The notes beneath the pieces were generated by a model. It was not told the origin of the DNA, ran no database searches, and saw only the letters and a list, made by a program, of their open reading frames with translations. A stretch of DNA of 64,000 nt. Source: Leifsonia shinshuensis (lineage in GTDB: Bacteria > Actinomycetota > Actinomycetes > Actinomycetales > Microbacteriaceae). Shown here one piece after another: positions 53,172 to 64,000 of the stretch. Each line of letters opens with the position of its first letter. The first letter of the stretch is position 1. The DNA lies in the NCBI RefSeq assembly GCF_013410375.1, contig NZ_JACCFL010000001.1, forward strand, positions 1,054,001 to 1,118,000, given 5' to 3'. The position numbers and the translations under genes are program-made.

Positions 53172-53792
53172 TCACGCCGGATGCCGCGACACCGCCGCCA
53201 GCGGCACGTGCCAGCGGAAGCGCAGGGACAGCATCCGGAAGGCGAACACCAGCGCCGCCACCGCCGCCTCGGTCCACGGGTTGTAGCCGTGCAGCGACCA
53301 GACGACCACGATGAGGGCCGCGCCGAGCATCGCGGGGACGGCGTAGAGGTCGTGCGGGTCGAAGAGCTGCGGGTCGCGGTTGGCGACGACGTCGCGGAGG
53401 AGGCCGCCTCCCACGGCCGTCGTCACGCCGAGGACGCCGGCCGCGATCGGGTTCGCGCCGTGCTCCAGCGCGATGACCGTCCCCGTGATGCAGAACAGCG
53501 CGAGGCCGCCGCCGTCGAACACCAGCAGCGTCCGCGGGAGACGGGCGACCGTGCCCGACAGGAAGAAGACCAGGACGGCGGCCACGACGGGCGGCGCCAG
53601 GTAGACCGGGTTCGCGAACGCGTTCGGCGTCACGCCGAGGATCACGTCGCGGATCACGCCTCCGCCGAGGCCGGTCAGCGAGCCGAGCAGCAGCGAGCCG
53701 ATGATGTCGAAGCCGCGCCGGGCGGCCAGCAGGCTGCCCGAGATCGCGAAGAAGAACGTGCCGAGGAGGTCGAGGACGAGAGGCGCCAGCAT
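53172..53792 (-). CDS. TRIC/UPF0126-type membrane protein
   Basis: The 206-residue protein has seven helices made of two homologous halves. FAISGSLLAARRGFDIIGSL with GGGVIRDVILG is followed by FCITGTVIALEHGANPIAAG with GGGLLRDVVANRD. These GG-x-x-RDV repeats are the UPF0126/TRIC signature. Members include glycine transporters and TRIC-like cation channels. Its start overlaps the Lrp stop by one base (TGATG on the minus strand), so it is coupled to an Lrp/AsnC regulator, a common link for amino-acid transport genes. Confidence 0.9.
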   Translation of the reverse strand: MLAPLVLDLLGTFFFAISGSLLAARRGFDIIGSLLLGSLTGLGGGVIRDVILGVTPNAFANPVYLAPPVVAAVLVFFLSGTVARLPRTLLVFDGGGLALFCITGTVIALEHGANPIAAGVLGVTTAVGGGLLRDVVANRDPQLFDPHDLYAVPAMLGAALIVVVWSLHGYNPWTEAAVAALVFAFRMLSLRFRWHVPLAAVSRHPA

Positions 53793-54712
53793 CAGCCGAC
53801 CATATCCTCCCGCGCGTCCTCGTCGCGCTGCATGAACTGGTAGCGCTCCAGCCGGATCCGCGCGTGCAGCCAGCTGGTCACCGCGCGCGTCCCGGGGCTC
53901 CGCCGCACCTGGTCGAGGAAGGCGTTGAAGTCCTGCAGCGACGAGAAGGCGATCGTCGCCACCAGGTCGAACCGGCCGACCGTGCGCGCCATGAACTCGA
54001 GGCCGCGGCGGCGGGAGATGAGCTCGATCAGCTCGTCGTCCGCGCCGTCGAGGTTCACGCCGACGCCGAAGACCAGACCGCCGATGGAGTCGGTGCGCTG
54101 GCCGAGCGCGCCGATCCGCATGATCCCGGAGTCGACGAGGTGGTGCAGCCGGGACCGGACCGCGGTGATCGAGAGGCCGGCGTGCCGGGCGAGCTCCCGG
54201 TAGGGCGCGCGGCCGTCGTGCTGCAGGATCTGGATGATCGCCCCGTCGGCGTCGTCCAGCTCGATCCCCGGTCCCTCCGGCTCGGCGCCGAGGAAGAAGC
54301 TGTTGAGCACGTGGTCGTAGATGAGGTGGCGCGCGTCCAGCACCCCCGGCAGGCCGCGGATCGTCTTCAGGATCGCCTGGAGCTCGCCGAGCGTGCGGAC
54401 GTGCACCTCGACCACGAGCTGCTCGGGGCCGACGGTCTCCGAGATGAAGACGGTGGCGACGCTCGCGGTGATCTCCTCGACGACACGGTCGACGTCGCCG
54501 CTGATCCGCATGGCGATGTGGGCCATGACGTTCAGGCCGAAGAACCGGGGATGCACGGCGGCGACGATCCGCAGCTCTCCGGACTCCAGCAGCGGCGAGA
54601 TGCGCGCGGCGATCGCGGGCCGCGGCACCCCGAGCTCTCTGGCGAGCTCGGCGAACGAGAGCCGCCCGTCGGTGCGCAGCAGCGCCAGGGCTTCTTCGGT
54701 GATCGAATCCAT
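53792..54712 (-). CDS. Lrp/AsnC-family regulator with two units
   Basis: The 306-residue protein is a tandem of two Lrp units. The first has an HTH (SFAELARELGVPRPAIAARI) and RAM domain to about residue 145. The second has its own HTH-like APYRELARHAGLSITAVRSR and a RAM-type ending about 240-300. Dual Lrp proteins are common in actinobacteria and often sit beside amino-acid or peptide uptake genes. It is divergent from the ABC importer and enzyme operon at 54921 and probably controls it. The ATG at 54712 follows GAAGGA. Confidence 0.88.
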   Translation of the reverse strand: MDSITEEALALLRTDGRLSFAELARELGVPRPAIAARISPLLESGELRIVAAVHPRFFGLNVMAHIAMRISGDVDRVVEEITASVATVFISETVGPEQLVVEVHVRTLGELQAILKTIRGLPGVLDARHLIYDHVLNSFFLGAEPEGPGIELDDADGAIIQILQHDGRAPYRELARHAGLSITAVRSRLHHLVDSGIMRIGALGQRTDSIGGLVFGVGVNLDGADDELIELISRRRGLEFMARTVGRFDLVATIAFSSLQDFNAFLDQVRRSPGTRAVTSWLHARIRLERYQFMQRDEDAREDMVG

Positions 54713-54742
54713 AAAATCCTTCGACGCTGGAGGTCTCACTAA

Positions 54743-54811: not shown

Positions 54812-54855
54812 TTGAACGCAATCCAGAACGAAAACATGATTTGACGGGGCCGTCA
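54812..54855 (+). promoter_or_regulatory. Promoter and dyad before the amino-acid-type ABC operon
   Basis: TTGAAC (54812-54817) and CATGAT (54835-54840) are 17 bases apart. The palindrome TGACGG-GG-CCGTCA (54842-54855) covers the expected transcription start, so a bound repressor, perhaps the divergent Lrp protein, would block initiation. Confidence 0.68.
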
Positions 54856-54920
54856 GACTCCCTGCACACTGAAGTCGCCGACGCCGGTGGCGCCCGGTTT
54901 TTGCCCAAAGGAGTGTGCAA

Positions 54921-55778
54921 ATGAAGAAAGCCGCAGCATCGATCTGCCTCGCCGCCGCGCTGGCGGTCACCCTCGCCGGATGCGCGTCCGGCAGCGACGC
55001 CGGAACCGCTTCCGGCGGCACGAAAAGTTCCTCCGCCGGCCCCGCCGGCCTGATCCACCCCGGCAAGCTCACGGCGTGCATCGACCCGGAGTACGCCCCG
55101 CTCGAGTACTACAAGAACGGCACGGACGGCGACATCGTCGGCTTCGACGCCGACGGCATCCGCGCCCTCGCCAAGCACTGGGGCGTGCAGGCCGACCTCG
55201 TCGTCACCTCGTTCGACGGTCTCATGCCGCAGCTCCAGTCGAGCGCCTGCGACGTGATCTTCGGCGGCCTCTACATGACGGACGCCCGCCTCCAGGTCGC
55301 CGACGCGAGCGCTGTGATGAAGGCCGGACCGACCATCATCACCACCCCGGCCCGCGCGGGAAAGATCACCAGCAAGACCGACCTGTGCGGCCTGACCGTC
55401 GCGGCGCAGGCAGCCTCGTCCAATGCGCTCACCATCAAGGCGCTCTCGGACACCTGCACGAGCGACGGCAAGAAGGCGATCAACCTCGTGGAGTACCCCA
55501 AGACCGCGGAGACCGTGCTCGCCGTCGTCAACGGCAAGGCCGACGCGCTCGCGGAGACCAACGTCGCCGCGGCCTACATGGTCACCCAGAACAAGGGCCA
55601 GCTGAAGATCGCGCCCAACGTGCTGGAACTCGACACCACCTTCGGCGTCTTCAGCCGCAAGGGCGACGCGCTGTCGCCGTCGATCGCGAGCGGCCTCGCG
55701 GCCCTGCGCGCGGACGGCACGCTCGCCGGCATCGCCAAGCAGTACGGCCTCGACCCGGCCATCACCGAGGTCAAGTAG
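54921..55778 (+). CDS. Amino-acid-type ABC substrate-binding lipoprotein
   Basis: The 285-residue protein has a lipoprotein signal peptide ending TLAGC. The family-3 (polar amino acid) solute-binding fold shows LTACIDPEYAPLEYYKNG, GDIVGFDADGIRALAK, LQSSACDVIFGGLYMTDARL and ADALAETNVAAAYMV. The ATG has AAAGGAG seven bases upstream. It is the first gene of the operon. Ligand could be an amino acid, dipeptide or an N-acyl or opine-like amino-acid conjugate, given the hydrolytic genes downstream. Confidence 0.88.
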   Translation: MKKAAASICLAAALAVTLAGCASGSDAGTASGGTKSSSAGPAGLIHPGKLTACIDPEYAPLEYYKNGTDGDIVGFDADGIRALAKHWGVQADLVVTSFDGLMPQLQSSACDVIFGGLYMTDARLQVADASAVMKAGPTIITTPARAGKITSKTDLCGLTVAAQAASSNALTIKALSDTCTSDGKKAINLVEYPKTAETVLAVVNGKADALAETNVAAAYMVTQNKGQLKIAPNVLELDTTFGVFSRKGDALSPSIASGLAALRADGTLAGIAKQYGLDPAITEVK

Positions 55779-55807
55779 GCACCTGGCGAAACGGAAAGGC
55801 GAGTCCC

Positions 55808-56539
55808 ATGGGTTTCGATCCCCAGATCTTCTTCCAGCAACTGCTGAGTCCCTCCTACCTGGTCGGAGCGCTGCTCTCGATCGGCGTGGCGTTCGTCTCG
55901 CTCGTGATCGCCACCGTCATCGGCTTCGTCGTCGCCCTCGGGCGCACGGGGAAGTCGAAGGCGGGGCGCATCCCGGCGGGCGTCTACGTCTGGTTCTTCC
56001 GGGCGATCCCGGCGCTGCTGGTGCTGCTGATCATGTGGAACGCCCTTCCGCAGCTCATCCCCGCGCTGCGCTCGGACTGGTACTCGCCGTTCGTCGCCGC
56101 GTCGATCGGCCTCGGACTGGTCGAGGCGGCGTTCATGGCGGAGATCATCCGCTCCGCGCTGCTGAGCGTGGACGACGGGCAGGCGCTGGCCGGCCGTGCA
56201 CTCGGCATCAAGCCGGCCGGCGTCATGCTCCGGATCGTCCTGCCGCAGGCCATCCGGATCGCGCTGCCGCCGACCACCAACGAGTTCATCGGGCTGATCA
56301 AGTACTCCTCGCTCGCGTCGGTGATCTCCCTCCGGGAGCTGCTGACGACGGCGCAGGTGGGCGTGAACATCACGTTCCGCTACGCCGAGTACTACGCGGT
56401 TGCGATCATCTACTACCTGGTCATCGTCAGCGTCATCACGCTGATCCAGACCCTCATCGAGCGCCGGTTCGCGTGGATCTCGGTCAAGACCGAGAAGAAG
56501 CGCAAGACCGTCGCCGTCCCGGCAGGAGGACTGTCATGA
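55808..56539 (+). CDS. Amino-acid-type ABC transporter permease
   Basis: The 243-residue permease has about five helices. The polar-amino-acid signature starts around YVWFFRAIPALLVLLIMWNA, and the EAA-like loop is AGRALGIKPAGVMLRIVLPQ. A basic C-terminal tail (TEKKRKTVAVPAGG) ends it. It lies 29 bases after the binding-protein gene. A single permease probably forms a homodimer, typical of HisM/GlnP-type systems with one gene. Confidence 0.88.
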   Translation: MGFDPQIFFQQLLSPSYLVGALLSIGVAFVSLVIATVIGFVVALGRTGKSKAGRIPAGVYVWFFRAIPALLVLLIMWNALPQLIPALRSDWYSPFVAASIGLGLVEAAFMAEIIRSALLSVDDGQALAGRALGIKPAGVMLRIVLPQAIRIALPPTTNEFIGLIKYSSLASVISLRELLTTAQVGVNITFRYAEYYAVAIIYYLVIVSVITLIQTLIERRFAWISVKTEKKRKTVAVPAGGLS

Positions 56540-57312
56540 CCACGGCCACGACGACCGGGGTTCTGCCCACCCTGCAGGTGACCGACCTGCACAAGGCCTA
56601 CGGCGGCAACGAGGTCCTCAAGGGCGTCGAGTTCGCGGTGCGGAAGGGCCAGGTCAAGGCGGTCCTCGGGCCCTCCGGCTCCGGCAAGTCGACCATGCTG
56701 CGCCTGATGGCGCTGCTGGAGCCGGCGGACCGCGGCGAGATCGCCCTGCACGGCAGCCGGATCGGCCGCAGCGCCGACGGCCGGCACCTGCCGGAGCGGT
56801 CGCTCGCCGTGCAGCGCCGCGACATCGGGATGGTGTTCCAGAAGTTCAACCTGTTCCCGCATCTCAGCGCCGCGCGCAACGTGGCGATGGCCCTCACCGC
56901 CGTGCAGGGCGTCAAGCGGCACGAAGCGCTGGAGCGGGCGCACGCCATGCTCGACCGGGTCGGCCTCTCGCAGCGCGCGGGGCACTACCCGTCGGAGCTC
57001 AGCGGCGGCCAGCAGCAGCGCGTCGCGATCGCGCGGGCGCTGGTGCTGGAGCCGGACGTGATGCTCTTCGACGAGCCGACCTCCGCGCTGGACCCGGAGC
57101 TCGTCGGCGAGGTGCTCGACGTGATGGAGAACCTCGCCCGCGGCGGGATGACGATGATCGTGGTCACCCACGAGGTGCGCTTCGCCCGCCGGGTCGCCGA
57201 CGAGGTCACGCTGTTCGACAGCGGCGTGATCGTGGAGCAGGCCTCTCCGGAGGAGTTCTTCGACAACCCGCAGCACGAGCGCACGCGCCGCTTCCTCAGC
57301 CACGTCCACTGA
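56536..57312 (+). CDS. Amino-acid-type ABC transporter ATP-binding protein
   Basis: The 258-residue protein has Walker A GPSGSGKSTM, Q-loop VFQKFNLFPHLS, signature LSGGQQQRVAIARAL, Walker B VMLFDEPTSALDPEL and switch THEVRFARRVAD, all in the order typical of GlnQ. The ATG overlaps the permease stop (ATGA). It completes the importer. A 52-base gap with a GAGGAG ribosome site precedes the dehydrogenase gene. Confidence 0.93.
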   Translation: MTTATTTGVLPTLQVTDLHKAYGGNEVLKGVEFAVRKGQVKAVLGPSGSGKSTMLRLMALLEPADRGEIALHGSRIGRSADGRHLPERSLAVQRRDIGMVFQKFNLFPHLSAARNVAMALTAVQGVKRHEALERAHAMLDRVGLSQRAGHYPSELSGGQQQRVAIARALVLEPDVMLFDEPTSALDPELVGEVLDVMENLARGGMTMIVVTHEVRFARRVADEVTLFDSGVIVEQASPEEFFDNPQHERTRRFLSHVH

Positions 57313-57364
57313 GCCCGGCCGCCGTCCGCCCGTCCCTCCCTTCCCTCCCGAACGAGGAGTCAGC

Positions 57365-58351
57365 ATGACCGAATCAGCTTCAGCGCGCCCGATCGTCGTC
57401 GCGGTGTGCTCCGATCTCGACGAGCTCGACATCCGCCCGCACCTCGACCGGATCGCGGCCGAGGGCCACACCGTCCGGTTCCTGACCGGCTGGGACCGCG
57501 ACGCGATCCTCGCAGAGGCCGGCGACGCCGACGCGCTCATGCTCGGCTACGGCGTGGTCGACGCCGACGTGATCGACGCGCTCCCGCGGCTGGGGATGAT
57601 CGCCCTGGCCTCCATGGGGTTCGACAACGTCGACCTCGCAGCCGCCGGGCGCAGGGGCGTCGCGGTCTCCAACATCGTCGGCGCGGCGACGGAGGAGGTC
57701 GCCACCCACGCGCTCGCCCTCACGCTCGACGCGGTACGCGGGATCAGCGCGTACGACCGCTCGGTGCGCGCCGACGGCTGGGACCTGGAGTCGGTGCCGG
57801 TGCAACCGCGGCTCAGCGGCCGGACGCTCGGCGTGGTCGGGCTCGGCCGGATCGGCGTGGCCTACCTGGAGCGCGCCCGCCCGCTGTTCGGCCGGATCGT
57901 CGGGCACGACCCGTTCCTGCCGGACGACCGGGTGCGGTCGCTCGGAATCGAGCCGGCCACGCTGGACGAACTCCTGCGCGTCGCCGACGTCGTGTCCCTG
58001 CACCTGCCGCTGACCGAGCAGACCCACGGGCTGATCGGCGCGCAGGCGCTCGCCGCGATGAAGGAGGACGCCGTGCTGGTCAACGTCAGCCGCGGCGGCC
58101 TGATCGACTCCACGGCCCTGCGCGACGCGCTCGACCGCGGCCGGCTGCGCGCCGCCGCCCTCGACGTGCTGGACGAGGAGCCGCCCGGCGCCGGTCATCC
58201 CCTCCTCGGCCACCCGCGGGTGACCCTCACCCCGCACGCCGGCTTCCGCTCGGCGGAGGCACTGGAGGACTACGTGCGCCTGCAGGCCGACAACATCCTC
58301 GCCTGGGCCAGGACCGGCGCCGCGCTGACGCCGGTCCCCGCCCTCGGCTGA
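57365..58351 (+). CDS. D-isomer-specific 2-hydroxyacid dehydrogenase
   Basis: The 328-residue protein has NAD-binding motif VGLGRIGVAYLERA (about residue 160), catalytic Arg in VNVSRGGLID, Glu in LDEEPPG, and His in TPHAGFRS. This is the phosphoglycerate/hydroxypyruvate dehydrogenase type. It would interconvert a 2-hydroxy acid and a 2-oxo acid. Within this operon, a 2-oxo acid would then be a natural substrate for the ThDP enzyme at 60054. It could also run in the opposite direction. Confidence 0.88.
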   Translation: MTESASARPIVVAVCSDLDELDIRPHLDRIAAEGHTVRFLTGWDRDAILAEAGDADALMLGYGVVDADVIDALPRLGMIALASMGFDNVDLAAAGRRGVAVSNIVGAATEEVATHALALTLDAVRGISAYDRSVRADGWDLESVPVQPRLSGRTLGVVGLGRIGVAYLERARPLFGRIVGHDPFLPDDRVRSLGIEPATLDELLRVADVVSLHLPLTEQTHGLIGAQALAAMKEDAVLVNVSRGGLIDSTALRDALDRGRLRAAALDVLDEEPPGAGHPLLGHPRVTLTPHAGFRSAEALEDYVRLQADNILAWARTGAALTPVPALG

Positions 58352-58380
58352 TCCACCCGTTCCCACCAGAAAGCCACACC

Positions 58381-60054
58381 ATGCGACGTTCCCTCACCCC
58401 CGCCGCCGCGGACCCGCGGCCGCAGCTCATCACCGCCTCGGCCATCCACACCATCGACGACGCCGACTCGGTCGCGGAGGCCCTGCTGGTCATCGGCGGC
58501 CGCGTCGCGGCGGTCGGCGACCTGGAGTCCTGCCGGGCGGAGGCCGCCCGCGTCTCCGCGCTGGCCCCGCGCGAGATCGACCTCGGCGAGGCCGTCGTCG
58601 TTCCCGGCTTCATCGACGCCCACGCGCACCCGCTCATGTACGGGCAGATGATGACCTGGGTCGACTGCGGCCCGGAGCGCGCGTCGTCCATCCCGGAGAT
58701 CGTGGCCCTGCTGAGCGCGGCGGCCGCGGCGACGCCCGGCGACACGCCCGTCCGCGGCTACGGCTACGAGCAGCAGAACCTCGCCGAGCGGCGGCACCCG
58801 AACCGGCACGAGCTCGACCAGGTGTCGACCTCCCGCCAGGTGTACCTGATGAACGCGAGCGGCCACGGCGGCGTCGTCAACTCCTTCACGCTGGAGCAGG
58901 CGGGCATCGACCGCACGACGCCGGACCCGCAGGGCGGCGAGTTCTTCCGCGACGCCGACGGCGAGCTGACCGGCGAGCTGAGCGACGCCGCGTGCAACAT
59001 CCTGACCGGCGTGCGCGGCGTCAAGGTCGGGCATCACGGGCCGAACTTCCACCTGGAGGACGAGCCGGCCGAGCACCTGCGCCAGCTGGAGGCCGCGCAG
59101 GAGCGCTTCCTCGCCGGCGGCGTGACGGCGATCGGCGACTGCCAGGTCACCCGCCGCGAGTTCGACATGTACCTGCGGCTGGCCGAGCGCGGCGAGCTCA
59201 CGACGCGCGTCTCCATGTACGTGCTCTCCCACCTGCTGGACGAGGTGCTGGAGCTCGGCCTGCACGGCGCCTTCGGCAACGAGACGCTCTCCTTCGCCGG
59301 GATCAAGCTCTACGCGGACGGCACGCTCGGTGGCTGGACGGCGTACTTCCCGGACGGCTACGTGGGCGACCCGTGCCGCACCGGCCAGCTCTACCACTCG
59401 TCGGAGGAGTACGACGCCCTGGTGCGGCGCGCGCACGCCGTCGGCCTGCAGACCGCGACGCACGCGCAGTCGCCCGACGCGATCGAGATGGTGATCTCCA
59501 CGATCGAGCGGGCGCTGGCCGATCGTCCCGACGCCGACGCGCGGCACCGGATCGAGCACTGCGGCCTCCCGACCGGCGAGCAGATCGAGCGGATGGCGCG
59601 GGCCGGGATCCGTCCGGTCAACCAGCCCCAGCACTACTACAACTGGGGCGAGGGCGTCACCGACGCGATCGGGACGCCGGGCGAGCGGTTCAACCCGCTG
59701 GGCGAGTTCGTGGCGGCGGGCGTGCCGGTCACCATCTCCTCCGACGCGCCCGTCGCGGACCCGATCCCGCTGGAGGCGATCCAGGTCGCCGCGACGCGCG
59801 TCACCCGCCGCGGCCACTCGCTCGGCCCGGGGGAGCTGCGGATCAGCGCCCGCGAGGCCCTGCGCGGCCACACCATCAACGGCGCCCGCAGCATCGGCCG
59901 CGAGGACGACCTGGGCTCGCTGGAGGTCGGCAAGCTCGCCGACTTCGCGGTCCTCTCGGCCGACCCGCTGGCGGTCGACGCCGCGCAGATCGGCGCGATC
60001 GACGTGCTCGAGACCTGGATCGGCGGGCAGCGCCGCTACCGGAAGGACAGCTGA
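58381..60054 (+). CDS. Amidohydrolase, YtcJ-type
   Basis: This 557-residue metal-dependent hydrolase has VVVPGFIDAHAHPLMYGQ with the metal H-x-H, IKLYADGTLGGWT, LQTATHAQSPDAIEMVIS, HRIEHCGLPTGEQIERMARA, and TISSDAPVADPIPLEAIQ near the end. The layout matches the YtcJ family of exocyclic amidases and deaminases. The C-terminal sequence ...IGAIDVLETWIGGQRRYRKDS resembles the fragment at 2-103, so the window's two ends contain related hydrolases. It follows the hydroxyacid dehydrogenase by 29 bases. Confidence 0.86.
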   Translation: MRRSLTPAAADPRPQLITASAIHTIDDADSVAEALLVIGGRVAAVGDLESCRAEAARVSALAPREIDLGEAVVVPGFIDAHAHPLMYGQMMTWVDCGPERASSIPEIVALLSAAAAATPGDTPVRGYGYEQQNLAERRHPNRHELDQVSTSRQVYLMNASGHGGVVNSFTLEQAGIDRTTPDPQGGEFFRDADGELTGELSDAACNILTGVRGVKVGHHGPNFHLEDEPAEHLRQLEAAQERFLAGGVTAIGDCQVTRREFDMYLRLAERGELTTRVSMYVLSHLLDEVLELGLHGAFGNETLSFAGIKLYADGTLGGWTAYFPDGYVGDPCRTGQLYHSSEEYDALVRRAHAVGLQTATHAQSPDAIEMVISTIERALADRPDADARHRIEHCGLPTGEQIERMARAGIRPVNQPQHYYNWGEGVTDAIGTPGERFNPLGEFVAAGVPVTISSDAPVADPIPLEAIQVAATRVTRRGHSLGPGELRISAREALRGHTINGARSIGREDDLGSLEVGKLADFAVLSADPLAVDAAQIGAIDVLETWIGGQRRYRKDS

Positions 60055-61766
60055 TGGCCGACAGCGCAGGCTTCGAGAACACCGCCGTCTACCAGAGCAC
60101 GGGAGGCGTCGCGATCATGCGCGCGATCCGCGCGTACGGGATCGACACGATCTTCGGCATCCCCGGCACCCACAACCTCGAGTTCTACCGGCCGCTGGCC
60201 GAGCTCGGCATCCGGCCGGTCACCACCCGGCACGAGCAGGGCGCGGGCTACGCGGCCGATGGCTGGTCGCAGCGCACCGGGCTGCCCGGCGTGGTCATCA
60301 CGACGAGCGGACCCGGACTGCTGAACGTGCTCTCGGCCGCGGGGACGGCCTTCTGCGAGTCCCGGCCGCTGCTCATCCTGTCGCCCGGCACCCCGCGCGG
60401 CACCGGGTACCAGGACCGCGGCGCGCTGCACGAGTCCAAGGACCCGACCGGCGCCGCCGGAGCGGTGGTGCTGTGGAGCCGCCGCGTCGATTCCGCCGCC
60501 GCGGCGGTCGAGGCCGTGCACGAGGCGTTCGCGCTGTTCGAGGCCGGACGTCCCCGGCCCGTGCACATCGAGGTCCCGCTCGACGTGCTGGAGGAGCCGG
60601 CGGTGGTGGACGAGCAGGACCTCGAGCGCCGCCGCACCTCCCGGGTCGCACCGGACTCCGTCGCGGTGCGCGCGGCCGCCGAGCTGCTCGGCGCGGCGTC
60701 CCGCCCGCTGATCGTGGCGGGCGGGGGAGCGGTGCCCGCGGCCGCGGCCGTCCGCGCGCTCGCCGAGCGCCTCGGCGCCCCGGTGGTCACCACGCTGAAC
60801 GGCAAGGGCGTCCTCCCCGAGTCGCACCCGCTCTCGCTGCGCGCGGAGCTGCGGCTGGCCGCGACGGCCGACCTCATCCGGGAGTCGGACGCCGTGCTGG
60901 TGATCGGCAGCAAGCTCGGCGAGGCCGAGCGCTGGGGCAACGACTTCGCCCCGGCCGGTCCGGTCGTCCGCATCGACGTCGACCCGGGCCGGATCGGCAC
61001 CAACGCGACCGCCGACGTCGCGATCGTCGGCGACAGCCGCCTCGCGGTGCCCGAGCTCGTCGCGTCCCTCGGCGCGGCGCGCGCCCACCGCGACGCGGAC
61101 GAGGTGGAGGCGGTGCGCGCCGCCCAGCGCGCCGAGGCGGCCGCGTTCTCGCCCGCCGTGATGCGCGCCGCCGACGCGATCACCGCCGCCCTGCCGCCGG
61201 AGGCGACCGTCGCCGGCGACTCCTCGCAGATCACGTACTACGGGATGACCTCGACCGTCCTCCAGGACGGACCGCACCGGTTCCTCTACATGCCCGCCTA
61301 CGCCACCCTCGGCTACGGCCTGCCCGCGGCGATCGGCGCCGCGATCGCCGAACCGGGCGTCCCCTCGGTGTGCGTGCTGGGCGACGGCGCCCTGATGTTC
61401 TCGGTGCAGGAGCTCGTCACGGCGGTGGAGCAGGGCGTCGACCTGACCGTCGTCGTCGTGGACAACGGCGGCTACCGCGAGATCCGCGAGAACGAGGCCG
61501 ACCGCGGCATCGCGCCCGTCGGCGTCGACCTCCGGCAGCCGGACTGGCCGCTCCTCGCCGACGCGTTCGGCGGCAGGGGCCACGCGGTGACCTCGGCCGC
61601 TGCGGTCGGCCCCACGATCGCCGCCGCGATCGCCGAGCCCGGGGTGAGCCTCGTGCACGTGCCGCTGCACCTCTTCGAGGCCGCCGGCGCACAGACCGGC
61701 GTCTCCACCGGCGCCTCCACCACCGCCACCGCCACCACCTTCAGCGAAGAACGGATCAGCGCATGA
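60054..61766 (+). CDS. ThDP-dependent enzyme (acetolactate synthase/decarboxylase-like)
   Basis: The 570-residue protein shares the three-domain plan of acetohydroxyacid synthase and 2-oxo acid decarboxylases. Catalytic Glu is in TTRHEQGAGYAADGWS, the PYR-domain loop is VVITTSGPGLLNVLSAAGTA, and the ThDP motif is GDGALMFSVQELVTAVEQ followed by VVVVDNGGY. The ATG shares one base with the amidohydrolase stop. With an aldehyde dehydrogenase downstream, decarboxylation of a 2-oxo acid to an aldehyde is a reasonable guess. Ligation or synthase activity cannot be ruled out. Confidence 0.85.
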   Translation: MADSAGFENTAVYQSTGGVAIMRAIRAYGIDTIFGIPGTHNLEFYRPLAELGIRPVTTRHEQGAGYAADGWSQRTGLPGVVITTSGPGLLNVLSAAGTAFCESRPLLILSPGTPRGTGYQDRGALHESKDPTGAAGAVVLWSRRVDSAAAAVEAVHEAFALFEAGRPRPVHIEVPLDVLEEPAVVDEQDLERRRTSRVAPDSVAVRAAAELLGAASRPLIVAGGGAVPAAAAVRALAERLGAPVVTTLNGKGVLPESHPLSLRAELRLAATADLIRESDAVLVIGSKLGEAERWGNDFAPAGPVVRIDVDPGRIGTNATADVAIVGDSRLAVPELVASLGAARAHRDADEVEAVRAAQRAEAAAFSPAVMRAADAITAALPPEATVAGDSSQITYYGMTSTVLQDGPHRFLYMPAYATLGYGLPAAIGAAIAEPGVPSVCVLGDGALMFSVQELVTAVEQGVDLTVVVVDNGGYREIRENEADRGIAPVGVDLRQPDWPLLADAFGGRGHAVTSAAAVGPTIAAAIAEPGVSLVHVPLHLFEAAGAQTGVSTGASTTATATTFSEERISA

Positions 61767-63355
61767 CACTCGACACCGCAACCGGGCTCGACCTCGCCGC
61801 GCGGGCCACCGCGCACGCCTGGATCGACGAGCACATGGACGAGCTCTCGGCGTGGCACTCCCGGATCTGGGACCTCGCCGAGCCCGCCTGGCGCGAGTAC
61901 CGCAGCGCGGCCTGGTACGTCGAGACGCTGCGCTCGTACGGGTTCGAGGTGGAGGAGGGCTCCGCCGGGATGCCGACGGCGTTCTCCGCCACCTGGACGA
62001 ACGACGCCGGGTCCGGCGGTGACGGCCCGGTGCTCCTCACCTACGCCGAGTACGACGCCGTGCCGGGCAACAACCAGTCCGCGTCGACGGCTCCGGCCCC
62101 GCGCGACGGGCTGAGCGGCTACGCCCCCGGCCACACCGACCCGCACTCGGCGCTCGGCATCTCGACCCTGGCCGGCCTGCTCGCCACGCAGCACGCGATG
62201 ACGACGCACGGCATCGCAGGGACCCTGCGCTACACGGGCGAGCCCGCCGAGAAGATGCACGGGTCGAAGGTCGTCCACGGCCTCCGCGGCTACTACGACG
62301 GGGTGGACGCCATCGTCAGCTTCCACCCGTTCTACATGCTGCCGCTCTGCAACACCGCGCGCTGGGACACCCAGTGCGGCGCGTACTACAGCAAGGTCTA
62401 CACGTTCAGCTGCGACGAGGCGGAGACCTGGCAACTGGAGAACGACCCGAACTCGCCCATCCCCGCCTCACACTCCGCGGCCAGGGCGCCCGGCGCCAAC
62501 GCGGCCCTGACCACGATGTACACCGCCTCCCGGGCGATGCAGGACGCCATGCTGCCGAGCGTCGGCGGCTGGAGCCTGTCCGACGCGATCTTGCTCGACG
62601 GGCAGGCCACCGCCGACAACCTGCCCACCCGCGTCGCCCGCATCCAGTTCTCCTGGCGCACGCCGAACATCGAGATGGCGGAGCACGTGCTGGCCGTCCT
62701 CGACCGCAACGCCGTGCACGCCGCGGCGATGGCGCACTGCACCGTGGAGGACCGCTGGATCGCCCGGAGCCGGCCCGGCCGCACCAACCACGTGCTGGCC
62801 GACGTGCTCTACCGCAACCTGGCCACGGTCGGGGCGCCGGTGTACGACGCCGAGGCCGTCCGGATCGCGAACGACATCCGCGCCACCCTCGGCGCCGACC
62901 CGGTCGAGCGGCCGTTCCTGGCCGCGTGCGAACAGCTCATCGAGCCGCAGGAGGCCGAGCGGCTGCTGCGCGAGCACATGCCCGCCTGGCAGCGCAACTG
63001 GACCAGCGACGACTACGTGGAGATGACCCACTACGCGCCGACGGTGCGCTTCTACGTCTCCCGGCCCGCGCTGGAGCCGATCCCCGGCAAGGGCGCCTAC
63101 CCGGCCTGGGTGATGAACGCCCTCGGCGGCATCCCCGCCACCATCGACCCGACCATCCGCACGGCGGGCAAGACCATCGCCGGCACGTTCCTGGAGCTGC
63201 TCGGCTCGCCGGAGCTGCTCGCGGAGGCCCGGGCCGAGTTCGACCGCCGCACCGCCGAGGAGCCGATGCCGCCGCTGCTCGACGCGGACTTCGAGGCGCC
63301 GATCGACCTCCCCTGGCCGGACTACTCCGGCCACGGCGGCCACCGGCGCTGGTGA
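61763..63355 (+). CDS. M20 amidase/peptidase, AbgB-like variant
   Basis: The 530-residue protein resembles p-aminobenzoyl-glutamate hydrolase subunit B and related M20 enzymes. It has DLAEPAWREYRSAAWYVETL, LTYAEYDAVPGNNQS, APGHTDPHSALG, TGEPAEKMHGSKVVHG and VDAIVSFHPF. In standard AbgB the metal motifs are GHxCGHN and PAEE, but here they read GHTDPH and PAEK, so metal coordination may differ. It overlaps the ThDP gene stop (ATGA). It may free an amide-linked amino or hydroxy acid from the imported compound. Confidence 0.82.
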   Translation: MTLDTATGLDLAARATAHAWIDEHMDELSAWHSRIWDLAEPAWREYRSAAWYVETLRSYGFEVEEGSAGMPTAFSATWTNDAGSGGDGPVLLTYAEYDAVPGNNQSASTAPAPRDGLSGYAPGHTDPHSALGISTLAGLLATQHAMTTHGIAGTLRYTGEPAEKMHGSKVVHGLRGYYDGVDAIVSFHPFYMLPLCNTARWDTQCGAYYSKVYTFSCDEAETWQLENDPNSPIPASHSAARAPGANAALTTMYTASRAMQDAMLPSVGGWSLSDAILLDGQATADNLPTRVARIQFSWRTPNIEMAEHVLAVLDRNAVHAAAMAHCTVEDRWIARSRPGRTNHVLADVLYRNLATVGAPVYDAEAVRIANDIRATLGADPVERPFLAACEQLIEPQEAERLLREHMPAWQRNWTSDDYVEMTHYAPTVRFYVSRPALEPIPGKGAYPAWVMNALGGIPATIDPTIRTAGKTIAGTFLELLGSPELLAEARAEFDRRTAEEPMPPLLDADFEAPIDLPWPDYSGHGGHRRW

Positions 63356-63360
63356 GCGGG

Positions 63361-64000
63361 ATGAGCGCTCCGGCCTTCGCGGTGGTCGACCCGGCGACGG
63401 GCGAGACCGTCCGCGTGTACGAGACGATCTCCGATGACCGGCTCGGGGAGGCCGTCGCCGCCGCCGACGACGCCCACCGCGCCTGGCGACGGATCCCGCT
63501 CGCCGAGCGTGCGGCCGTCGTCCGCCGCGTCGCCGGCCTGCACCGGGAGCGTCGCCGCGAGCTGGCCGCGATCGCCGCCCTGGAGATGGGCAAGCCGATC
63601 GGGCAGGCGCTCGCCGAGGTGGACTTCTCCGCCGACATCTACGCCTACTACGCCGACAACGCCGAGCGCTTCCTGGCCGACGAGCCGCTCGAGCTGCGGT
63701 CCGGCGGCGGGCGCGCGTTCGTGCGGCGCGCCTCCCTCGGCGCGCTGCTCGGGATCATGCCGTGGAACTTCCCCTACTATCAGGTCGCCCGCTTCGCGGC
63801 CCCGAACGTGGTGGCGGGGAACACCATCCTGCTCAAGCACGCGCCGCAGTGCCCGGAGTCCGCGGCGGCGATCGAGGAGCTGTTCGCCGAGGCGGGCGCC
63901 CCGGCCGGCGTCTACACGAACGTCTACGCGTCCACCGACCAGGTCGCCGGCCTGATCGCCGACCCGCGCGTGCAGGGCGTCTCGCTGACCGGTTCGGAGC
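63361..64000 (+). CDS. Aldehyde dehydrogenase, succinate-semialdehyde type (partial)
   Basis: The first 213 residues of an NAD(P)-dependent aldehyde dehydrogenase, cut by the window end. The visible part has the N-terminal FAVVDPATGETVRVYE, the LGIMPWNFPYYQVARFAAPN motif before the active site, and cofactor-domain segments GNTILLKHAPQCPESAAAIE and VQGVSLTGSE. The MPWNFPYYQ motif and opening resemble succinate-semialdehyde dehydrogenases. It is five bases after the M20 gene, in the same operon, and would oxidise an aldehyde made by the ThDP enzyme. Confidence 0.9.
   Translation, partial: MSAPAFAVVDPATGETVRVYETISDDRLGEAVAAADDAHRAWRRIPLAERAAVVRRVAGLHRERRRELAAIAALEMGKPIGQALAEVDFSADIYAYYADNAERFLADEPLELRSGGGRAFVRRASLGALLGIMPWNFPYYQVARFAAPNVVAGNTILLKHAPQCPESAAAIEELFAEAGAPAGVYTNVYASTDQVAGLIADPRVQGVSLTGSE

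Follow-up and report, generated by a model that had tools for sequence, protein, structure and literature searches.

Several described pathways offer comparisons for a closely packed operon at one end of a 64,000-nucleotide stretch of the Leifsonia shinshuensis genome (the window; RefSeq assembly GCF_013410375.1, contig NZ_JACCFL010000001.1, here C1, positions C1:1054001-1118000). The operon would share with the mandelate pathway (MdlA-D) a logic that runs from amide to 2-hydroxy acid, 2-oxo acid, aldehyde and acid, and Occ/Noc-type opine catabolic operons carry flavin adenine dinucleotide (FAD)-linked opine oxidase subunits. The EhuABCD ectoine importer resembles the importer of the operon in that the ATPase and permease of the latter score well on Ehu models, but the operon proteins all fall below the equivalog cut-offs and the binding protein reaches just 34 bits on EhuB. 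The AruH-AruI pathway of Pseudomonas and the AspC-IlvB1 network of Sinorhizobium meliloti, as far as an excerpt of PMC7268258 describes them, have in common with this genome a putative AruI-type thiamine diphosphate (ThDP) decarboxylase, an aldehyde dehydrogenase and a guanidino-type ureohydrolase, whereas the operon itself has no transaminase, encodes a D-2-hydroxyacid dehydrogenase (HADH), a YtcJ-type amidohydrolase and an M20-like protein under Lrp-type control, and is unlinked to the ureohydrolase. Domain and profile scans of the operon genes found no aminotransferase that could stand for an arginine:pyruvate transaminase beside the decarboxylase.

Proposed pathway and operon content

We propose, with confidence a little short of even, that this is a catabolic operon through which a basic, most likely guanidino (arginine-derived), 2-hydroxy acid, or its amide or ring form, joins the arginine transaminase lane at a point below the transaminase. 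The guanidino link, formed by the AruI-type decarboxylase and the ureohydrolase, is new relative to the initial annotation and narrows the compound class. From the gene content, its conservation, the kinship of the ThDP enzyme and the ureohydrolase association, we infer the reactions and the substrate as follows. The importer would take up the basic 2-hydroxy acid, or its amide or ring form, YtcJ and/or the M20-like protein would hydrolyse the amide or cyclic amide, and HADH would oxidise the D-2-hydroxy acid, giving 5-guanidino-2-oxopentanoate or a similar 2-oxo acid. Decarboxylation by the ThDP enzyme would then yield 4-guanidinobutanal, and the aldehyde dehydrogenase would form 4-guanidinobutanoate, from which the ureohydrolase, encoded at C1:845558-846619, would free urea and leave 4-aminobutanoate (GABA). 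The order of amide release, 2-oxo acid formation, decarboxylation and aldehyde oxidation is that of the initial annotation, retained here as the most natural chemistry for steps that are conditional throughout. Its suggestion of an opine-like conjugate has nothing specific in its favour; profile and domain scans found no FAD-linked opine oxidase subunit among the operon proteins, and opine oxidation was therefore rejected.

A broader claim, which we consider unlikely but worth stating, is that the operon represents a second way into the guanidinobutyrate lane, in which actinobacteria and, with other parts, rhizobia would dehydrogenate rather than transaminate D-argininic acid or a similar guanidino 2-hydroxy acid, or the corresponding amide or ring derivative, using an M20-fold hydrolase with a lysine standing in for one of two metals. 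An excerpt of PMC8745165 seems to list arginine enzymes under argininic acid and is of no help here.

The character of the importer was considered in an alignment of its binding protein with E. coli ArgT and HisJ. Asp161 of ArgT, which we take to hold the alpha-ammonium of the ligand, is Thr in the window binding protein and 13 relatives, and Arg77 is kept. The replacement of this Asp suggests a carboxylate ligand that lacks the usual free alpha-amino group.

Reading frames and domain scans recovered the importer and all the enzyme classes that had been named at first, in the same order (Table 1). The description of closely packed genes divergent from an Lrp regulator also stands, with stop and start codons overlapping at the permease/ATPase, YtcJ/ThDP and ThDP/M20 junctions and the regulator gene on the minus strand; locus comparison places an Lrp/AsnC-type regulator next to the operon in relatives too. 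The genome is a single contig of 4.42 Mb, the G+C content of the window is 72.7%, and the aldehyde dehydrogenase gene runs 731 bases past the window end. As the initial annotation had supposed, no description of this gene set was found in the open-access literature, judged by titles and the starts of abstracts, with subscription journals largely outside that scope. The chemistry is assembled from known enzyme classes, and the combination and its substrate appear unassigned. Public records name such genes 'amidohydrolase', 'thiamine pyrophosphate-dependent enzyme' or 'aminobenzoyl-glutamate utilization' (among the best 120 of 2301 proteins, and on an Arthrobacter plasmid); for these gene sets, which occur in Micrococcales and in rearranged form in rhizobia, the proposed pathway would supply a compound class and a route open to testing.

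Table 1. Features of the operon and its divergent regulator (window positions unless stated otherwise)
Feature	Position	Strand	Basis
Lrp/AsnC-type regulator, 315 aa, two AsnC-type helix-turn-helix (HTH) halves	53792..54739	-	Pfam HTH_AsnC-type, 2 stretches; divergent from operon
Promoter-like TTGACG/CACACT with 6-2-6 dyad	54841..54870	+	Read from bases; TTGAC conservation
Family-3 substrate-binding lipoprotein	54921..55778	+	SBP_bac_3; alignment with E. coli ArgT, HisJ
ABC permease, amino-acid (PAAT) type	55808..56539	+	BPD_transp_1; TIGR01726 above cut-off
ABC ATPase; nearest equivalog EhuA, below its cut-off	56536..57312	+	Profile scans
D-2-hydroxyacid dehydrogenase (HADH)	57365..58351	+	2-Hacid_dh and 2-Hacid_dh_C
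YtcJ-type amidohydrolase	58381..60054	+	Amidohydro_3, full profile covered
ThDP enzyme, AruI/IlvB1 superclade, probable basic 2-oxo acid decarboxylase	60054..61766	+	NF005712, tree, ten shared positions; all three TPP domains
M20-fold protein, PM20D2/HmrA-like, Lys164 at the metal-Glu place	61763..63355	+	TIGR01891 below cut-off, predicted fold
Aldehyde dehydrogenase, Sad/succinate-semialdehyde type	63361..64000, on to L009:11731 = C1:1118731	+	Domain scans

ThDP enzyme and conservation of the gene set

The best NCBIfam model for the ThDP enzyme is NF005712 (5-guanidino-2-oxopentanoate decarboxylase, AruI), on which it scores 471.3 bits, below the cut-off of 500; the IlvB1 orthologue of Sinorhizobium medicae, taken as such on the strength of an aminotransferase gene directly upstream, scores 804 bits. 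On a phylogenetic tree with long outgroup branches, for which upstream extensions of 20, 60 and 35 residues were trimmed from three rows, the operon-type enzymes form the sister clade of the S. medicae IlvB1 orthologue and the M20-linked rhizobial enzymes (support 97/97). Ten positions, Glu43 and Glu476 among them, are common to all 30 operon-type and all nine AruI-type enzymes and are each found in no more than one of 11 other ThDP enzymes. Glu476 presumably corresponds to residue 460 of benzoylformate decarboxylase, which lines the substrate pocket, and an acid at this position would suit a basic side chain. Taken together, these comparisons make the enzyme a probable decarboxylase of a basic 2-oxo acid. 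The initial annotation had named acetolactate synthase of branched-chain synthesis as an identity of the ThDP enzyme that would refute its reading, and this identity is rejected: the enzyme scores 276 bits on the biosynthetic model (cut-off 538) against 471 on the AruI model, it groups with AruI/IlvB1 types on the tree, and the genome encodes its own IlvB at another site (1062 bits, cut-off 881).

A comparison of genome neighbourhoods, which had been suggested as a check, revealed that the genes are conserved together, the opposite of what would have refuted the initial annotation. A plasmid of Arthrobacter sp. ERGS1:01 carries the identical nine genes in identical order. An M20 alignment was scanned against genome contigs, and the best 80 of 560 confirmed stretches were taken as M20-centred loci, in which counts are tblastn maps and gene calls, made with a simple codon-bias finder, are rough. 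YtcJ, ThDP and M20 genes occur together in 30 of these 80 loci, accompanied by HADH in 24, an ABC permease and ATPase in 15, an MHS-type MFS transporter in 15, an aldehyde dehydrogenase in five and a ureohydrolase in five; all nine genes are present in four of the 80, in varying order. A sample independent of M20 was drawn from 299 Microbacteriaceae genomes (E <= 1e-100), where the ThDP enzyme is present in 30 (40 to 100% identity), YtcJ in 25 and M20 in 15, the M20 matches being full-length and at least 75% identical in 13, partial in one and 42% identical in one. In 23 of the 25 genomes with YtcJ, no more than 2 kb separates it from the ThDP gene, and 17 of these 23 clusters include HADH. 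For M20 the distance to the ThDP gene is at most 5 kb in 12 of 13 genomes, and 12 of the 25 genomes with YtcJ have a YtcJ-ThDP cluster with no M20 close by. On these cluster counts, the core is YtcJ and the ThDP enzyme, usually with HADH, and the transporter, M20 and aldehyde dehydrogenase are exchangeable.

Other arrangements were seen around M20 relatives. Four related Arthrobacter (L053, L057, L059, L069) have a glycerate-kinase/amidohydrolase cluster in which a distant ThDP gene, perhaps a glyoxylate carboligase, stands directly behind the M20 gene. Plasmid clusters of Shinella, Sinorhizobium and Kozakia (L014, L015, L016) combine M20 relatives of 48-49% identity with a PuuE-like deacetylase, a HyuC-like amidase and a class II aldolase, and two of the three also have an aminotransferase and an AruI-type ThDP gene. 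In Kibdelosporangium (L043:9761-14289), an M20-like gene has flavin amine oxidase and amino-acid permease genes as neighbours and an amidase gene at a greater distance, an arrangement reminiscent of arginine monooxygenase chemistry.

Ureohydrolase association and alternative substrates

The ureohydrolase of this genome scores 310 bits on NF002564 (cut-off 302) and adjoins a cytosine/purine-type permease; the same pair lies next to the cluster in locus L120. Among the 299 Microbacteriaceae genomes, an agmatinase/guanidinobutyrase-type ureohydrolase is present in 28 of the 30 that have the ThDP enzyme and in 54 of the 269 that lack it (Fisher p ~1e-15), and by genus in 17 of 18 and 21 of 67, respectively (p ~1e-6), a contrast that is large, though the p values are too small because genome size is ignored and relatives are treated as independent. 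Of 12 Microbacteriaceae genomes that have YtcJ and ThDP genes with no close M20, six have the ureohydrolase no farther than 6 kb from the ThDP gene; of 13 with M20, two have it within 8 kb. It is also found in 11 of the 80 M20-centred loci. M20 and an in-cluster ureohydrolase are therefore rejected as strict alternatives. Six of eight loci noticed were picked for an HADH paralogue near a ureohydrolase, and all six contain a ThDP gene; of three ThDP enzymes scored from these, that of L143 reaches 529 bits, above the AruI cut-off. Among the 80 M20-centred loci, rhizobial ones have DDAH-like genes in ten, a GlcD-like FAD enzyme that scores below the cut-off of its model in nine and AruI-type ThDP genes in five; four further rhizobial-type ThDP matches in Arthrobacter are distant. 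A related cluster in L138 and L139 (G073, G188) has a deiminase-like gene, another ThDP enzyme, a PAAT importer, HADH, a carbamoylase-like gene and a ureohydrolase.

Several findings weigh against a guanidino 2-hydroxy acid, in addition to the sub-threshold AruI score and the inflated p values. The models that recognise the ureohydrolase are named agmatinase (arginase family), and its gene is more than 260 kb from the operon. On the AruI model, the ThDP enzymes of L139 and L141 reach just 291 and 316 bits, below their scores on another model. HADH is absent from six of the 23 YtcJ-ThDP clusters, and aminotransferase-like genes occur in 15 of the 80 M20-centred loci, so that transamination may be the source of the 2-oxo acid. 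The alpha-ammonium Asp is retained in five binding proteins that other genomes encode next to the same ThDP-M20 pair.

Transamination is part of an alternative that we regard as rather unlikely. Here the substrate would be a basic amino acid in conjugated or dipeptide form (Xaa-Arg or beta-alanyl-lysine type), opened by the M20-like protein as the entry amidase; a housekeeping transaminase would supply the 2-oxo acid for decarboxylation by the ThDP enzyme, and HADH would deal with the other half of the conjugate. The initial annotation had called this protein an M20 amidase. The M20 fold is supported by structure prediction, in a comparison that covers the listed families and leaves room for those off the list, but the protein has no Pfam-A match at E 0.001 and scores 75 bits on TIGR01891 against a cut-off of 154, and the same fold need not mean the same substrate. 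The metal ligands of M20 enzymes we take to be the Glu of PAEE, the C-terminal His, a Cys or Asp, and two His. Lys164, invariant across 75 of 82 sequences (those of 500-600 aa with no X), replaces the metal-binding Glu (the second Glu of PAEE/PGEE). In the M20-like protein the C-terminal His is not kept, His188 is kept, and the Cys position depends on the alignment. The protein thus differs from the AbgB/PM20D2/HmrA group by Lys164, by the C-terminal His and by a longer chain, and if it works with an altered metal site it would be an unusual variant within a very large hydrolase family. The loss of the usual metal Glu argues against an entry amidase, as do the 12 of 25 genomes whose YtcJ-ThDP cluster has no close M20. 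PADLOC gave no match for YtcJ or the M20-like protein.

It is also possible, though we think it quite unlikely, that the 2-oxo acid carries a basic group other than guanidino, being 5-amino-2-oxopentanoate or a lysine relative, and that a common lifestyle explains the ureohydrolase association. The aldehyde dehydrogenase belongs to the succinate-semialdehyde type, and, according to an excerpt of PMC7268258, S. meliloti IlvB1 decarboxylates 5-guanidino-2-oxopentanoate and acts seven times better on 5-amino-2-oxopentanoate. However, the ureohydrolase is often within or beside the cluster, beyond mere presence in the same genome, and the rhizobial versions are accompanied by deiminase-like genes.

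These deiminase-like genes bear on a further alternative, which we judge improbable: YtcJ, or in rhizobia a DDAH/arginine-deiminase-like protein, would convert the guanidino group to a ureido group that the M20-like protein hydrolyses, providing a two-step ureohydrolase substitute at the end of the lane. Several rhizobial loci have a DDAH-like gene immediately after M20, Kozakia has an arginine-deiminase-like gene immediately ahead of it, the M20 fold is common to carbamoylases, and a ureohydrolase near the ThDP gene is more frequent in clusters lacking M20 (6/12) than in those with it (2/13); its co-occurrence with M20 is as described above. Methylarginines, glycated arginine (MG-H1) and cyanophycin dipeptides were weighed because of the DDAH-, HyuC- and PuuE-like neighbours, but the evidence does not separate them and none is claimed. 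A mandelate-type pathway of amide hydrolysis, mandelate oxidation, benzoylformate decarboxylation and benzaldehyde oxidation, with a convergent racemase-superfamily gene as the racemase, fits the enzyme classes on paper but is very improbable and was rejected, since the ThDP enzyme belongs to another subfamily, grouping with AruI types while the benzoylformate decarboxylase PDB entry scores low in the list, and the racemase-like gene is convergent, resembles talarate/galactarate dehydratase and is not conserved, its sole match among loci L010-L096 being one of 28% in L015.

Promoter region and neighbouring genes

The initial annotation had described a strong promoter with a dyad on the start site and had read tight induction from it, which is conjectural. 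TTGACG (54841-54846) and CACACT (54865-54870) were read from the bases as -35 and -10 elements, a pair that is absent from the output of a consensus promoter scan. In an alignment of 17 upstream regions of the binding-protein gene, the window counted, 15 keep TTGAC at this place, and a conserved promoter is therefore likely. The perfect dyad TGACGG-GG-CCGTCA is located at 54842-54855, where it overlies the -35 element rather than the start site. It is found in none of the other regions among the 17 compared, of which L033 and L126 have one-mismatch versions. An exact 8-bp inverted repeat, TGCACACT/AGTGTGCA, with a 41-nt spacer (window:54863-54919), links the -10 region with the bases that precede the start codon and may be due to chance.

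Just behind the regulator gene and on the same strand lies a gene for a PF03458 membrane protein with two repeats (window:53172-53789, minus strand). Past the window end, L009:11756-16977 contains convergent genes for the racemase-superfamily protein, a PRK08273-type ThDP enzyme and, by reading, a GMC-type oxidoreductase, which possibly constitute a sugar-acid cluster.

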